33,735 nt of DNA from Bacteroidota bacterium. Lineage in GTDB: Bacteria > Bacteroidota > Bacteroidia > Flavobacteriales > Flavobacteriaceae. A program made the translations under genes and the position numbers. The stretch is from assembly GCA_947450355.1 (NCBI GenBank), contig CANFVB010000009.1, positions 1 to 33,735 of the forward strand. The letters run 5' to 3'. Numbering within the stretch: the stretch's first letter is position 1; every line of letters starts with the position of its first letter. Under the pieces are notes generated by a model that was given only the letters and a program-made list of their open reading frames with translations, was not told the origin of the DNA and ran no database searches. Positions 457-31,935 of this stretch are shown one piece after another.

Positions 457-3087
457 TTATTCTTCACTATCGTCGTCAGATTCATCGTCAGAATCCGCAT
501 CATCGTCTTCGGAAACTTCATCATCGTCATCATCGTCATCATCAGTAGCGCCTTCTTCATCTTCAAGAATTTCTAGTACTGGTTTCACTCTTTCGATAGC
601 TTCTACTTCAATAACATTTCCATCTTCATCAAGAACTTCTTCAACTACATCGTCTTTCATTACTTTAGTTACAGCGGCGATGGAATCATTTCCTTTAATG
701 TTAATCAGTTTCACACCTTGTGTTGCACGACCCATTACTCTCAAATCCTCAACTGCCATTCTAATGGTCAATCCAGATTTGTTGATAATCATTAAATCAT
801 CGGCATCAGTTACAGCGTTAATAGAAATTAATTTACCTGTTTTCTCAGTGATATTAAGGGTTTTCACTCCTTTTCCACCACGATTGGTAATTCTATATTC
901 GTCAATGCTTGAACGTTTTCCATAACCATTTTCTGCAACAACAAGTATTTCACTACTCATATCATTCACAGAAACCATTCCGATTACTTCATCAGATTCA
1001 TCTCTTAATGTAATTCCACGAACTCCAGAAGCTGTTCTTCCCATTGGACGGGTTTTGCTTTCTTCAAAACGAACCATTTTACCAGATTTAACCGCAATCA
1101 TAATTTGACTGTTTCCATCTGTTAATTTTGCTTCCAATAATTCATCACCTTCTTTAATAGTAATTGCGGCAACTCCATTTACACGAGGTTTAGAATATTT
1201 ATCAAGTGACGTTTTCTTAACTTGACCTTTCTTAGTCACCATTATAAGGTTGTGGCTATTTGTATATTCTTTATCTTTTAGATCTTGTGTACAAATAAAT
1301 GCTTTCACTTTATCATCACTTTCAATGTTGATTAAGTTTTGTAAAGCACGTCCTTTTGCGGTTTTGCTACCTTCTGGAATTTCATAAACACGCATCCAGA
1401 AACATTTTCCTTTTTGAGTGAAGAACATCATATATTGGTGGTTTGTTGCCACAAACATATGTTCTAAGAAATCTAAATCTCTTGTTCCCGCACTTTTTTG
1501 CCCAACTCCTCCTCTATTTTGTGTTTTGTATTCTGTAAGATTTGTACGTTTAATATAACCAGCGTGAGAAATTGTAATTACTACATTTTCATCGGCAATT
1601 AAATCTTCAATACTTACATCGCCACCTGAATATTCAATTACAGAACGACGCGCATCTCCATATTTATCACGGATTTCTACAAGTTCCTCTTTGATTAAAG
1701 CAGTTCTTAAATTTACATCTGCAAGTAATCCTTTCAAATGTTCGATTAATTTCATCAATTCATCATATTCAGCTCTCAACTTATCTTGTTCAAGACCTGT
1801 TAACTGACGCAAACGCATTTCTACGATAGCACGAGATTGAATATCTGATAATTTGAATCTTTCAACTAATTTTTCTCTTGCTTCTTCTGTGTTTTTTGAA
1901 CTTCGGATTAAAGCAATTACTTCGTCAATATTATCAGAAGCAATAATTAATCCTTCTAAAATATGCGCTCTTTCTTCAGCTTTACGCAATTCAAATTGTG
2001 TTCTACGAACTACAACTTCGTGACGGTGCTCGATGAAATAGTGAATCATATCCTTCAAATTCAACATTTGCGGACGCCCTTTCACCAAGGCAATATTATT
2101 TACACTAAAAGAAGATTGTAATTGTGTAAATTTATAAAGTGTATTCAAAACCACGTTTGGCGTAGCATCTCTCTTTAATATATATACAATTCGCATTCCG
2201 TTTCTATCCGATTCATCACGGATATTCGCAATACCTTCAATTTTTTTGTCATTAACTAAATCAGCCGTTCTCTTAATCATATCGGCTTTATTCACCTGAT
2301 ATGGAATTTCTGTTACAATGATAGATTCTCTTCCGTCAACCTCTTCAAAGTTCACTTTAGCTCTCATTACAATTCTTCCACGACCCGTTTTGAATGCTTC
2401 ACGAACACCTTCATAACCATAAATTATTCCTCCAGTTGGAAAATCTGGGGCTTTAATATGATTCATCAATTCGTCAATTTCAATGTCGGTATTGTCTAAA
2501 TATGCCAACGTTCCATTGATAACTTCCGTTAAATTGTGCGGTGGCATATTGGTAGCCATACCAACAGCAATTCCCGTAGCTCCGTTTATTAACAAAGTTG
2601 GAACTCTTGTAGGCATTACTTTTGGCTCATATAAAGTATCATCAAAATTCAATTGAAAATCAACAGTTTCTTTTTCGATATCTGCCATAATCTCTTCCGA
2701 AATCTTACGCATTCTCGCTTCAGTATAACGCATTGCTGCAGGACTGTCGCCATCAACAGAACCAAAGTTACCCTGTCCGTCAACTAATAGATAACGCATA
2801 CTCCATTCTTGAGCCATACGAACCATCGCATCATAAACAGAAGTATCTCCGTGTGGATGGTACTTTCCTAAAACTTCTCCTACAATTCTTGCAGATTTTT
2901 TATGGGCAGATTTTGAGGTAATCCCCAATTCGTGCATTCCAAAAAGTACTCTTCGATGTACAGGTTTCAAACCGTCTCTAACATCTGGAAGTGCTCGTGA
3001 TACAATTACCGACATCGAATAATCGATGTAAGCTGTTTTCATTTCATCTTCTATGTTAATAGGAATTAACTTTTCTCCGTCAGACAT
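457..3087 (-). CDS. gyrA: DNA gyrase subunit A
   Basis: 876 aa; [51 protein letters not shown], catalytic region [10 protein letters not shown], GyrA C-terminal repeats, acidic tail. Confidence 0.98.
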
Positions 3088-6625: not shown

Positions 6626-6752
6626 AAAATTGAAATTATGCTTATGAAAAATATTTTGAGATAGCAAAATTTAACCAATTGAAAAGTGAAATCGGAAACT
6701 AAATAAAGAAAAGTGAAAATTTACAATTCTATTGCAATTTCGACAGAAAAAA

Positions 6753-7446
6753 CCCAGATAGTGCGGATATGTTCCGTTTCGACAGCGCGGATTTTTAATC
6801 CGTGCCCAAAAAGACAAGAAAAAATAATTGTGATGAAACTGCCTCGTTCCTCGCAATGCTATTCTAACACGATTACGGATGCGACAACTAATTGCCATTG
6901 CTAATAAAATAAAAATAGAATCTGAAATAAATTCAGATTGACAAAACAAAGGTTAAATATCCGACCTCTCGGATATGTCCCACAACGCATAGGGCATTTG
7001 ACCAGATGGCTCGGATATGTTCCGTTTCGATAGCGCATTCTATGATAAAAAACAAGAAAAAATAATTGTGATGAGACTGCCTCATTCCTCGCAATGCTAT
7101 TCTAACACGATTACGGATGCGACAACTAATTGCCCTTGCTAATAAACTAAAAATAGAATCTGAAATAAATTCAGATTGACAAAACAAAGGTTAAATACCC
7201 AGATGGCTCAGATATGTTCCGTTTCGATAGCGCGGATTTTTAATCCGTGCCCACAAATACAAGAAAAAATAATTGTGATGAGATTGCCGCGTTCCTCGCA
7301 ATGACATTCTAACACGATTACGGATGCGACAACTAATTGACCTTGCTGATAAAATAAAAATAGAATCTGAAATAAATTCAGATTGACAAAACAAGGGTTA
7401 AATATCCGACCTCTCGGATATGTCCCACAACGCATAGGGCATTTGA
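6753..7446. repeat. Three tandem copies of a ~200-250 bp composite intergenic repeat
   Basis: Copies begin at about 6753, 7002 and 7198. Each has CCAGATrGyTCrGATATGTTCCGTTTCGAyAGCGC..., ACAAGAAAAAATAATTGTGATGA, CGTTCCTCGCAATG, CTAACACGATTACGGATGCGACAACTAATTG and AATCTGAAATAAATTCAGATTGACAAAACAA. The 44-nt TATCCGACCTCTCGGATATGTCCCACAACGCATAGGGCATTTGA follows copies 1 and 3. Confidence 0.9.
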
Positions 7447-7500
7447 ACCTTATATACTAAATCTAATTTGCTTGTGTTCGGCAGAGGGGCATCCAACAAG

Positions 7501-7673
7501 AAATCGATCGTCGGCAGGTTGGATATTCAGTATCCGAGGAGAAATCAATCATCGGCGGGTCAGATACTCAGTATCCGAGGAGAAAACGATTGTCGGCGGG
7601 TTGGATACTGAGTATCCGAGGAGAAATCAATCGTCGGCAGGTTGGATACTCAGTATCCGAGGAGAAATCAATC
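7501..7673 (+). repeat. 41-bp tandem repeat array 1 (4 full units plus 9 bp)
   Basis: Unit starts at 7501, 7542, 7583, 7624 (partial at 7665), exactly 41 bp apart. Consensus AAATCAATCGTCGGCAGGTTGGATACTCAGTATCCGAGGAG. Confidence 0.95.
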
Positions 7674-7709: not shown

Positions 7710-7850
7710 TAAACCCAGACCACTCGGATATGTCCCCTCAACGGATTGGGCGGATTTTCAATTCGTCCCCACAAAGGCAAGAAAAAAAGAGTGGTTTTAA
7801 TGTTAAATTAAGAATCTGAAATAAACTCAGATTGACAAATCGAAGGTGAA
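7710..7850. repeat. Degenerate fourth copy of the composite repeat, downstream of array 1
   Basis: aaacccagaccactcggatatgtcccctcaacg...gggcggattttcaattcgtccccacaaaggcaagaaaaaa...AATCTGAAATAAACTCAGATTGACAAA matches the composite repeat's module order. Confidence 0.65.
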
Positions 7851-29074: not shown

Positions 29075-30088
29075 ATGGCAAAAATAAAGTTAGAGTACAT
29101 TTGGTTGGACGGATACGAGCCAACTCAAAATTTAAGAAGCAAAACTAAAGTTGAAGAACATGCAAATTTTCAAGGAACTTTAGCTGAAATCGGAAATTGG
29201 TCTTTTGATGGATCTTCAACAAAACAAGCCGAAGGCGGATCTTCAGATTGTTTGTTAGTTCCTGTGGCAATCTACCCAGACCCAACTCGCATCAATGGCT
29301 ATTTAGTAATGACCGAAGTTATGAATGCCGATGGTACGCCACACGCTTCAAACGGTAGAGCAACTATTGACGATGATGGTGATTTTTGGTTCGGATTTGA
29401 GCAAGAATATTTCATCATGGACACCAAAACTTTATTGCCATTAGGATTTCCAATTGGCGGTTACCCAGCGCCACAAGGAATGTACTACTGCTCAGTAGGT
29501 GGAAAAAATACTCACGGAAGAGCTTTAGTTGAAGAACACGCAGATTTATGTATCGAAGCTGGAATCAACTTTGAAGGAATTAATCAAGAAGTAGCTTGCG
29601 GACAATGGGAATTCCAATTGTTTGCTCAAGGTGCTAAAAAAGCAGGTGACGAAATTTGGGTTGCCCGTTATTTATTAGATCGTTTAACCGAAAAATACGG
29701 TTACTATATAGAATACCACCCAAAACCATTGGGAGATACCGATTGGAATGGTTCAGGAATGCACGCTAATTTCTCTAACGAAGTTTTGAGAACGTGTGGA
29801 GACCAAGCAACATACGAAAAAATATGTGAAGCGTTCCGTCCTGTAACTGCAGAACACATTGCGGTTTATGGAGCTTATAATGACCAACGTTTAACAGGAA
29901 AACACGAAACTGCATCGATTCACGATTTCTCTTATGGGGTTTCAGACAGAGGATGTTCGATCCGTATTCCGTTAATGACCGTTCAAAAAGGTTGGAAAGG
30001 TTGGTTAGAAGACAGACGTCCAGCATCAAATGGCGATCCTTACAAAATTGCTGCACGAATTGTAAAAACTGTAAAATCAGTTCTATAA
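29075..30088 (+). CDS. glnA: Glutamine synthetase type II (eukaryotic-like GSII, short form)
   Basis: 337 aa; AEIGNWSFDGSSTKQAEGGSSDCLLVPVAIYPDP, GFEQEYFIMD, GQWEFQLF, DWNGSGMHANFSN. Confidence 0.94.
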   Translation: MAKIKLEYIWLDGYEPTQNLRSKTKVEEHANFQGTLAEIGNWSFDGSSTKQAEGGSSDCLLVPVAIYPDPTRINGYLVMTEVMNADGTPHASNGRATIDDDGDFWFGFEQEYFIMDTKTLLPLGFPIGGYPAPQGMYYCSVGGKNTHGRALVEEHADLCIEAGINFEGINQEVACGQWEFQLFAQGAKKAGDEIWVARYLLDRLTEKYGYYIEYHPKPLGDTDWNGSGMHANFSNEVLRTCGDQATYEKICEAFRPVTAEHIAVYGAYNDQRLTGKHETASIHDFSYGVSDRGCSIRIPLMTVQKGWKGWLEDRRPASNGDPYKIAARIVKTVKSVL

Positions 30089-30150: not shown

Positions 30151-30286
30151 ATATAGCCATTCCACATAATATTTATACATTGGAACTCCTACAAAAACGA
30201 GAACAAAATCTGATACTGTTGTGATTTTTTTTTCCGTTGCGAGTTCTCCCTTCTGGGATTAAGGGGTTGGTGTCTCGGCTAAAGAG

Positions 30287-30778
30287 AAATCAATCGTCGG
30301 CAGGTTGGATACTCAGTATCCGAGAAGAAAACAGTTGTCGGCAGGTCGGATACTCAATATCCGAGGAGAAAACGATCGTCGGCGAGCTAGATACTCAGTA
30401 TCCGACCAGAAATCAATCGTCGGCGGGTTGGATACTCAGTATCCGACCAGAAAACAGTTGTCGGCAGCTCGGATACTCAGTATCCGACCAGAAATCAATC
30501 ATCTAAAGGTCAGGTGCTTAGTATCCGAAGAGGAATCAATCATCTGCGGGTTGGATACTCAGTATCCTAGGAGAAAACGATTGTCGGCGTGTTGGCTGAG
30601 GGTCATCCGACCAGAAAACGGTCGTCGGCAGCTCGGATGAGGGTCATCCGAACAGAAATCAGTCGTCGGCAGCTCGGATGAGGGTCATCCGACCAGAAAT
30701 CAATCGTCGGCAGTTCGGATGAGGGTCATCCGAACAGAAAACGGTCGTCGGCAGGTTGGATGACCCTTTTCTGAACTC
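30287..30778 (+). repeat. 41-bp tandem repeat array 2 (12 units, no indels, two dyad-core classes)
   Basis: Unit starts 30287, 30328, 30369, 30410, 30451, 30492, 30533, 30574, 30615, 30656, 30697, 30738, all spaced 41 bp. Cores GGATACTCAGTATCC (most of units 1-7) and GGATGAGGGTCATCC (units 8-11, variants included); unit 12 diverged. Confidence 0.96.
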
Positions 30779-30823
30779 AAACAAATAAATTTGAAAAAGG
30801 CTTTTTCGATTTATAAAAATTAG

Positions 30824-30844
30824 AATCTGAAATAAATTCAGATT
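30824..30844. repeat. AATCTGAA-ATAAA-TTCAGATT hairpin module
   Basis: Same 21-nt hairpin as 6919-6939, 7157-7177 and 7364-7384 (variant at 7813-7833), each followed by GACAAA. Confidence 0.9.
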
Positions 30845-30894
30845 GACAAATCTTGGGTAAATTTTGAAATGATAAAATAAACTCAAAAACACCG

Positions 30895-31935
30895 CTACTC
30901 TACTACTTCGTGGGATTTCGAGTAATTGCGCCATTTTTCAATACAATCCTGCATATCTTGTGGCAATTCGGTATCAAAACGCAGCATTTCGCCCGTAGTA
31001 GGATGAACAAACCCTAAAGTCTTGGCGTGCAAGGCTTGACGCGGCAAAACCTTGAAACAATTGTCAATAAATTGTTTGTATTTTGTAAAAGTAGTTCCCT
31101 TCAAAATTAAATTTCCACCATAACGCTCATCGTTAAAAATAGGATGTCCAATGTGTTTCATGTGCACACGAATTTGGTGCGTACGTCCTGTTTCTAATAT
31201 ACAAGAAACCAACGTTACATAGCCAAAACGCTCCAAAACTTTATAATGCGTAACGGCGTGTTTTCCAATGGTAGGATCTTCAAAAACCGACATTTGCATT
31301 CTGTCTTTTACGTGTCGTGCAATATTTCCTTCAATCGTGCCTTCATCTTCTTTGACAGTTCCCCAAACCATAGCAACATATTCTCTTTCGGAAGTTTTAG
31401 CTTCAAATTGCTTTGCGAGGTGCGTCATTGCCGCTTCGGTTTTTGCAATTACTAAAAGTCCTGTGGTATCTTTATCAATTCGATGCACCAATCCTGGTCG
31501 TTCGCTGCTATTCATTGGCAAATTCTCAAAATGATACGCCAACGCATTCACTAAAGTTCCCGTGTAATTTCCGTGTCCCGGATGCACTACAAAACCTGCT
31601 GGTTTGTTAATGAGCAACAACGTATCGTCTTCATAAACTATATCAAGCGGAATATTTTCTGGGTCAACACGGTTTTCAAACGGTGGATGTGTCAGCATAA
31701 TCCGAACAATATCCAAAGGTTTTACTCTGTAATTTGATTTTACGGGAACATCATTCACATAAATATCGCCAGCTGTAGCGGCATTCTGAATTTTATTTCG
31801 AGTCGCATTTGGAATCAAATTCATCAAAAACTTATCAATCCTTAAAAGCAATTGCCCTTTAGGAACATCAAATCTAAAATGCTCAAATAATTCCTCTTCA
31901 ATCTCGTCAATCTCTGTATTCTGATTATTGTCCAT
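30895..31935 (-). CDS. rluD: RluA-family (RluD-type) pseudouridine synthase
   Basis: 346 aa; S4 domain then INKPAGFVVHPGHGNYTGTLVNAL, LVHRIDKDTTGLLVIAKT, TGRTHQIRVHMKHIGHPI. Confidence 0.94.
   Translation of the reverse strand: MDNNQNTEIDEIEEELFEHFRFDVPKGQLLLRIDKFLMNLIPNATRNKIQNAATAGDIYVNDVPVKSNYRVKPLDIVRIMLTHPPFENRVDPENIPLDIVYEDDTLLLINKPAGFVVHPGHGNYTGTLVNALAYHFENLPMNSSERPGLVHRIDKDTTGLLVIAKTEAAMTHLAKQFEAKTSEREYVAMVWGTVKEDEGTIEGNIARHVKDRMQMSVFEDPTIGKHAVTHYKVLERFGYVTLVSCILETGRTHQIRVHMKHIGHPIFNDERYGGNLILKGTTFTKYKQFIDNCFKVLPRQALHAKTLGFVHPTTGEMLRFDTELPQDMQDCIEKWRNYSKSHEVVE

Follow-up and report, generated by a model that had tools for sequence, protein, structure and literature searches.

The window, that is, the whole 33,735-nt stretch of DNA analysed here, carries a tandem array at 30285-30776 in which 11 full units and a terminal unit follow one another at a spacing of exactly 41 bp, as laid out in the unit table. 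It lies between a glutamine synthetase gene (29075-30088, plus strand) and an RNA pseudouridine synthase gene (30895-31935, minus strand). The window holds a second array of the same kind, and both are intergenic. The features are as follows.

7478-7498: half-unit before the second window array
7499-7662, plus strand: second window array, four class I units, one with centre base G replacing C
30203-30284, plus strand: left flank, ACAAAATCTGATACTGTTGTGATTTTTTTTTCCGTTGCGAG...GGGG, with similar sequence to the left of three other arrays (L057, L062, and L063)
30285-30776, plus strand: array of 41-bp tandem units, seven of class I, four of class II, and one terminal
30285-30571, plus strand: class I block, units 1-7, dyad GGATAC-TCA-GTATCC
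30572-30735, plus strand: class II block, units 8-11, dyad GGMTGA-GGG-TCATCC
30723-30770, plus strand: terminator-like stem, GGGTCATCCGAAC ... GGTTGGATGACCC, then TTTT
30736-30776, plus strand: unit 12, an inverted class II half, with the end GGATGACCCTTTTCT
30736-30812, plus strand: conserved right end, the terminal unit and the tail ACTCAAACAAATAAATTTGAAAAAGGCTTTTTCGATTT, 90-99% identical among seven arrays of the genome

Each unit consists of AGAAAWCRRTYGTCGGCRGGTY, the core, and GANN, and the array closes with the inverted half-unit GGTTGGATGACCCTTTTCTGAAC. The terminator-like stem is formed by the last class II unit paired with this inverted terminal half-unit; a stem of this design, placed at that same end, is found in most other arrays of the window's genome (G000) and of a close relative (G014). 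Two further kinds of repeat can be seen in the window. Another dispersed palindrome, AATCTGAAATAAATTCAGATTGACAAA, has several copies (6913-6945, 7346-7390, 7812-7845, and 30820-30855), and degenerate direct repeats some 450 bp long, in which GCGGATTTTTAATCCG motifs occur, lie at 6700-7450, left of the second array; part of this repeat region is also present in G014 (L061).

The two-class pattern, first read from the sequence in the original prediction, was confirmed by the unit table, by shuffles (the window matches the unit pattern 13 times, 100 shuffled versions not once), and by a reversed control pattern (a genome count of 65 for GGATN7ATCC, against 4 for the control). The table also bore out the arrangement of class I on the left (units 1-7) and class II on the right (units 8-11), the reading of unit 4 as GGTTGGATACT-C-AGTATCCGACC at 30426-30448, and the changes between the classes at pairs 5/11 and 6/10 of the core. 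The accompanying statement that pairing is preserved between the classes holds for these two pairs. It does not extend to pair 7/9, which is lost in class II (T-A to G.G), or to unit 8, GGCTGAGGGTCATCC, which has a C.T mismatch at pair 3/13; this mismatch is frequent in class II, and the form that carries it is the majority form genome-wide (17/29). Changes to a single arm occur in units 2, 3, and 6 of the window. At core position 8 of class I, the base is G in 42 units, C in 37, and T or A in 4, mixed in most arrays, which suggests flipping of the palindrome centre or the spread of two alleles.

The original prediction took the two paired changes as covariation in support of a functional hairpin or cruciform. 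Inside the repeat family of the window, this failed, with double changes not above shuffles in either class. For the 75 distinct units of class I, the observed double-change value was reached by 499 of 500 shuffles, and for the 28 distinct units of class II by 408 of 500; double-changed sequence pairs numbered 54 against a shuffle mean of 251 in class I, and 11 against 21 in class II. At pair 23/37, one arm changes and the other does not follow (G-C 38, G.T 31, A.C 13, A-T 1). Among 112 non-terminal units, the classes differ by one block of seven adjacent columns, with no intermediates and no unit joining one arm of each class. Since the tests within each class are null and the block has no intermediates, the two "compensatory" pairs are a single event, the replacement of one block. 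Palindrome-directed copying, which the prediction had allowed for, could account for this event taken alone.

The extent of the family was assessed with a covariance model derived from the units of the window and run genome-wide, after which the matched loci were read. G000 (an assembly of 2.3 Mb in 226 contigs, 84% complete) has 90 units, spread over 13 arrays or single copies, and G014 has 33 units in four arrays. Among 400 sampled congeners, further matches were confined to G028, with a divergent array of the same spacer and period and no palindrome, and G364, with a lone terminal unit. The unit pattern was found across all GTDB genomes only in the MAG Jr-23apr18-44, apart from two single chance-like matches, and not at all in viral contigs; Rfam gave no match above the gathering score, and no similarity to the array was found in plasmid or phage DNA.

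The arrays of the family have the right end in common, and in several the left flank is shared too. A run of class I, then class II, then the terminal unit is seen in the window array, L052, L053, L055, and L060 (the last in G014); L057 and L058 have class I followed by class II, and the contig ends before a terminal unit is reached. Over 311 bp, the window's class I block also shows about 89% identity to an array that lies upstream of a DUF6261 gene in the same genome (G000:C201), and both contain the rare TCTAAA unit. The recurrence of the class I-then-II order, seen in six G000 arrays and in one from G014, together with this identity, makes local block expansion, proposed earlier for the window, not the simplest account.

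Next to this glutamine synthetase gene in G014 there are only three class II units and the terminal unit, and the right flank there matches G000:C201, not the RluD side; the difference in flanks reflects either a rearrangement through the arrays or an assembly join, both assemblies being fragmented. The glnA site in the relatives G002 and G003 has no array, and because synteny breaks down past the glnA terminator, a target duplication cannot be read there. Inverted GGGTCATCCGACC / GGTCGGATGACCC lie at the array ends, and no transposase with inverted ends of this type was found among the loci read. Some neighbours of the arrays should be recorded here. The roughly 380 bp past the array in L054 (3730-4112) and L052 (4553-4929) are about 87% alike, exceeding the usual flank. 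A protein whose start is Cas9-like (MTKILGLDLGTNSIGWAIVE) adjoins a short array in L051 (4620-6965). Paralogous small secreted-type proteins (MKKLILISLLSF...) are encoded behind arrays or single units in L055 (4300-4794) and L062 (3835-4326), and the segment upstream of their genes resembles that of the DUF6261 gene.

One might read all this as a passive minisatellite or MITE-like element that expands by slippage, has its palindromes perfected by template switching, and has the DUF6261 neighbourhood merely as a place where arrays start or persist. Copy number does differ between orthologous arrays (eight repeat units plus the terminal unit at L050 of G000, 15 plus the terminal unit at L060 of G014), blocks are exchanged, the arrays have left and right flanking segments as in BrickBuilt, and the class I/II difference is one block event. 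We nevertheless consider this reading unlikely, and the distribution of arrays around DUF6261 genes is one of two things that it leaves unexplained.

In G000:C201 (L059), the DUF6261 gene (1675-2433; PF19775, E 2e-29) has the array 121 bp upstream, and in G028 (L064) the gene (2312-3079) has its array 88 bp upstream, with the units in the opposite orientation relative to the gene. A survey of genus and phylum samples gave 31 DUF6261 loci in total, the gene being rare (17/400 congeners, 5/248 in the phylum sample). Arrays were called with Tandem Repeats Finder at a period of 38-46 bp between -650 and the ATG. By this measure, an array is present at most 650 bp upstream of the start in 22 of the 31 loci, always with a period of 41, 42, or 43 (mostly 41), and autocorrelation alone reveals a lag of 41-42 in three of the other nine. 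Leaving aside G000 and G028, the two loci that first showed the link, an array is present in 20 of 29; once the link held in these other loci, a stand-alone MITE, our first idea, was dropped as the lead. Elsewhere in the same loci, no array of period 38-46 bp was found in 84 kb, and 119 kb of control loci gave a single 42-bp row, which falls within a long coding-type repeat of 21 bp. Arrays of period 41-43 bp are thus regular companions of DUF6261 genes.

The DUF6261 loci come from several families, with one outside the class (G479). From species to species the units differ in sequence, and most are unrelated to one another. It is this keeping of a 41-43 bp period by unrelated units, upstream of one rare gene family and in several families of the phylum, that a passive element does not explain. 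Arrays also occur away from the gene. When 13 other DUF6261 genomes were each searched with their own units, eight (G233, G281, G283, G297, G336, G372, G397, and G403) had cognate arrays without an adjoining DUF6261 gene, and in G014 (an assembly 88% complete) arrays are present and the gene was not detected. An unrelated second tandem repeat of 43 bp (22 bp) lies at L201 (1729-1827), 300 bp from a dispersed 41-bp array.

Palindromes, intergenic sites, and dispersal within a genome are also traits of classical REP elements moved by a RAYT (TnpA_REP) transposase, which would here be tandem by chance. We regard this as very improbable: the GTAG tag is absent from the column composition of 123 units, the unit's CGTC is separated from the stem by 8 nt and not directly adjacent, the units are ordered head to tail and not as inverted dimers, and the gene linked to the arrays is PF19775/DUF6261, not a Y1 (HUH) tyrosine transposase.

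The protein itself gives few leads. Profile searches found no known DNA- or RNA-binding domain in DUF6261, comparison with Pfam, NCBIfam, PADLOC, and PDB sequences gave no convincing match beyond DUF6261 itself, a PDB sequence search with the DUF6261 profile returned no homologue of a solved structure, and the gene was found in no plasmid record, phage record, or viral contig. In the open literature, one paper names DUF6261 in an unrelated context, and no account of a matching 41-bp repeat was found; subscription journals fall outside this coverage.

A tandem array upstream of a gene, with a conserved monomer length, divergent sequence, and variable copy number, is among the listed features of type III toxin-antitoxin loci (PMC5086642), and DUF6261 loci match each of these. 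Transcription of the array could then yield a repeat RNA, ending at the inverted terminal unit, by which DUF6261, a toxin of a new family, is restrained, with the dispersed arrays serving as spare antitoxin loci. A long terminator-like hairpin made of a unit and its inverted copy is indeed found at the gene-proximal end of the array in L151, L152, L155, and L159, as it is at the end of most G000 and G014 arrays, and the plus strand of the window family has more G.T than A.C pairs. The hairpins give the RNA alternative genuine support. Set against these are the terminator-like ends, present in only 4-5 of the 22 loci, the lack of a convincing toxin or defence model matching DUF6261, the absence of the gene from plasmid and phage records, the variable orientation of the units relative to the gene (G028 against G000), and the eight of 13 genomes with arrays lacking an adjoining DUF6261 gene. 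In several loci, inspection by eye also showed promoter-like TAnnTTTG motifs in the stretch that separates the array from the gene, and the two may therefore be transcribed separately. On balance, we think it improbable that these are type III loci. Two candidate indicators of strand were rejected: the G.T excess, as RNA proof, is weak, being dominated by two columns, and folding of the whole array gave z = -9.5 for one strand and -9.3 for the other, favouring neither.

The dyad is not peculiar to the window family. Across 22 consensus units, palindromes are in excess over dinucleotide (Euler) shuffles, the test relied on here (Fisher p = 3e-4), although most of the units are individually unremarkable; a swap-based shuffle, probably under-mixed, gave p = 0.38, and a mononucleotide shuffle gave 0.003. 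The array unit of G028 has no palindrome and is a counter-example to a universal one. In a subfamily whose proteins carry LEFGQ/LEAGQ in the alignment, the dyad is AGAYRC NNN GYRTCT, its variants differing in both arms together (GATAC..GTATC against GACGC..GCGTC), and L162 carries GATACTCAGTATCC, which is the class I core of the window from its second base on. Among 36 distinct dyads from the arrays of seven species, 90.3% of cells are paired, and 25 cells are double-changed against 9.4 in shuffles (0/500 reached the observed value; slid controls gave 1-4); these dyads were picked by eye for palindromes and represent few independent lineages. The paired arm changes across species lend support, short of proof, to a maintained dyad.

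A second class switch is found in G233. L192 has eleven units of AGACGC..GCGTTT (A) followed by five of AGATAC..GTATCY (B), and L193 has eight A units followed by six B; the two classes are identical at 21/26 positions of the spacer and at 7/15 of the dyad. This is the pattern of the window in another species, with two dyad classes in blocks, a shared spacer, and other arms. Its recurrence is the second point that a passive element leaves unexplained. The covariation argument for a functional dyad, which fell inside the window family with its one block event, thus regains ground from the paired changes in the arrays of other species and from the switch in G233.

We put at about even the chance that DUF6261, or a partner, recognises the dyad-bearing arrays of its own genome, the two forming a two-component system. 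The proposal starts from units that differ between species, a frequent short interrupted dyad, paired arm changes in one subfamily, dispersed arrays, and shared blocks. In such a system, DUF6261 or its partner would bind the dyads of its own genome's arrays, and a period of about 41-42 bp, or some four turns of the DNA helix, would bring each site round to the same face of the helix as the one before. A near-constant period combined with free sequence points to a physical constraint, and since the period is near-constant at about four turns, we prefer a DNA-binding platform over RNA, with DUF6261 as the obvious candidate. The two classes would represent dyad types that coexist in blocks, and new arrays and mixed blocks would arise through recombination or copying between arrays. 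The window array would be a dispersed member of a family whose parent copy adjoins DUF6261 at G000:C201. More tentatively, and at somewhat less than an even chance, the protein may read the dyad (as DNA on one helix face, or as RNA) with a repeat "dialect" evolved by each genome, dyad types such as GATAC..GTATC may be conserved across species and exchanged as blocks, and the class switch in the window may be a change of recognition type.

A protein family of unassigned role thereby gains a candidate nucleic-acid partner, and the pairing of DUF6261 with the repeat suggests an undescribed partnership across Bacteroidota. To our knowledge, repeats that keep a near-constant period while their sequence is free, that lie upstream of one gene family, and that recur elsewhere in the genome are otherwise seen only in part, in type III toxin-antitoxin loci and in REP/RAYT.

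Four known systems invite comparison. BrickBuilt, a MITE with a 23-nt minisatellite in Porphyromonas gingivalis (PMC4596501), is likewise intergenic, has distinct left and right flanks, belongs to a Bacteroidota genome, changes copy number between strains, and has a narrow host range; the arrays described here differ in a period of 41 and not 23, a dyad in the unit, and a link to a protein family, and the terminal inverted repeats of known transposons were not found at the arrays in the loci read. The ToxIN/TenpIN/CptIN systems (PMC5086642) share tandem repeats upstream of a gene, conserved length, divergent sequence, and, at some loci, a terminator-like hairpin. By sequence (fold lying outside the comparison), however, DUF6261 is not an endoribonuclease of the ToxN/TenpN/CptN type, its genomes have extra gene-less arrays, the terminator is often missing, promoter-like motifs lie between the array and the gene, and no plasmid or phage copies were found. 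CGTC-tagged REPs (PMC3733652) are also short palindromes, and CGTC is present in our unit, but here the stem is about 6 bp with a 3-nt loop as against 8-9 bp and 4-5 nt, the tag is non-adjacent, and the units are in tandem, head to tail. With REP/REPIN and RAYT (PMC3116915, PMC2817692), the likeness is that of a rare gene flanked by its cognate repeat and of species-specific palindromic repeats dispersed in the genome, whereas DUF6261 is unrelated to the HUH transposase, the units are head to tail with a 41-43 bp period and no GTAG, and there are tens of copies in few arrays. The arrays do not show the full set of defining features of REP/RAYT, type III loci, BrickBuilt, or CGTC REPs. Their behaviour would be comparable to that of REP sequences with a RAYT gene, the protein being unrelated, and the DUF6261-array system may be likened to REP/RAYT or to a type III locus while being, by the tests run, a member of neither.
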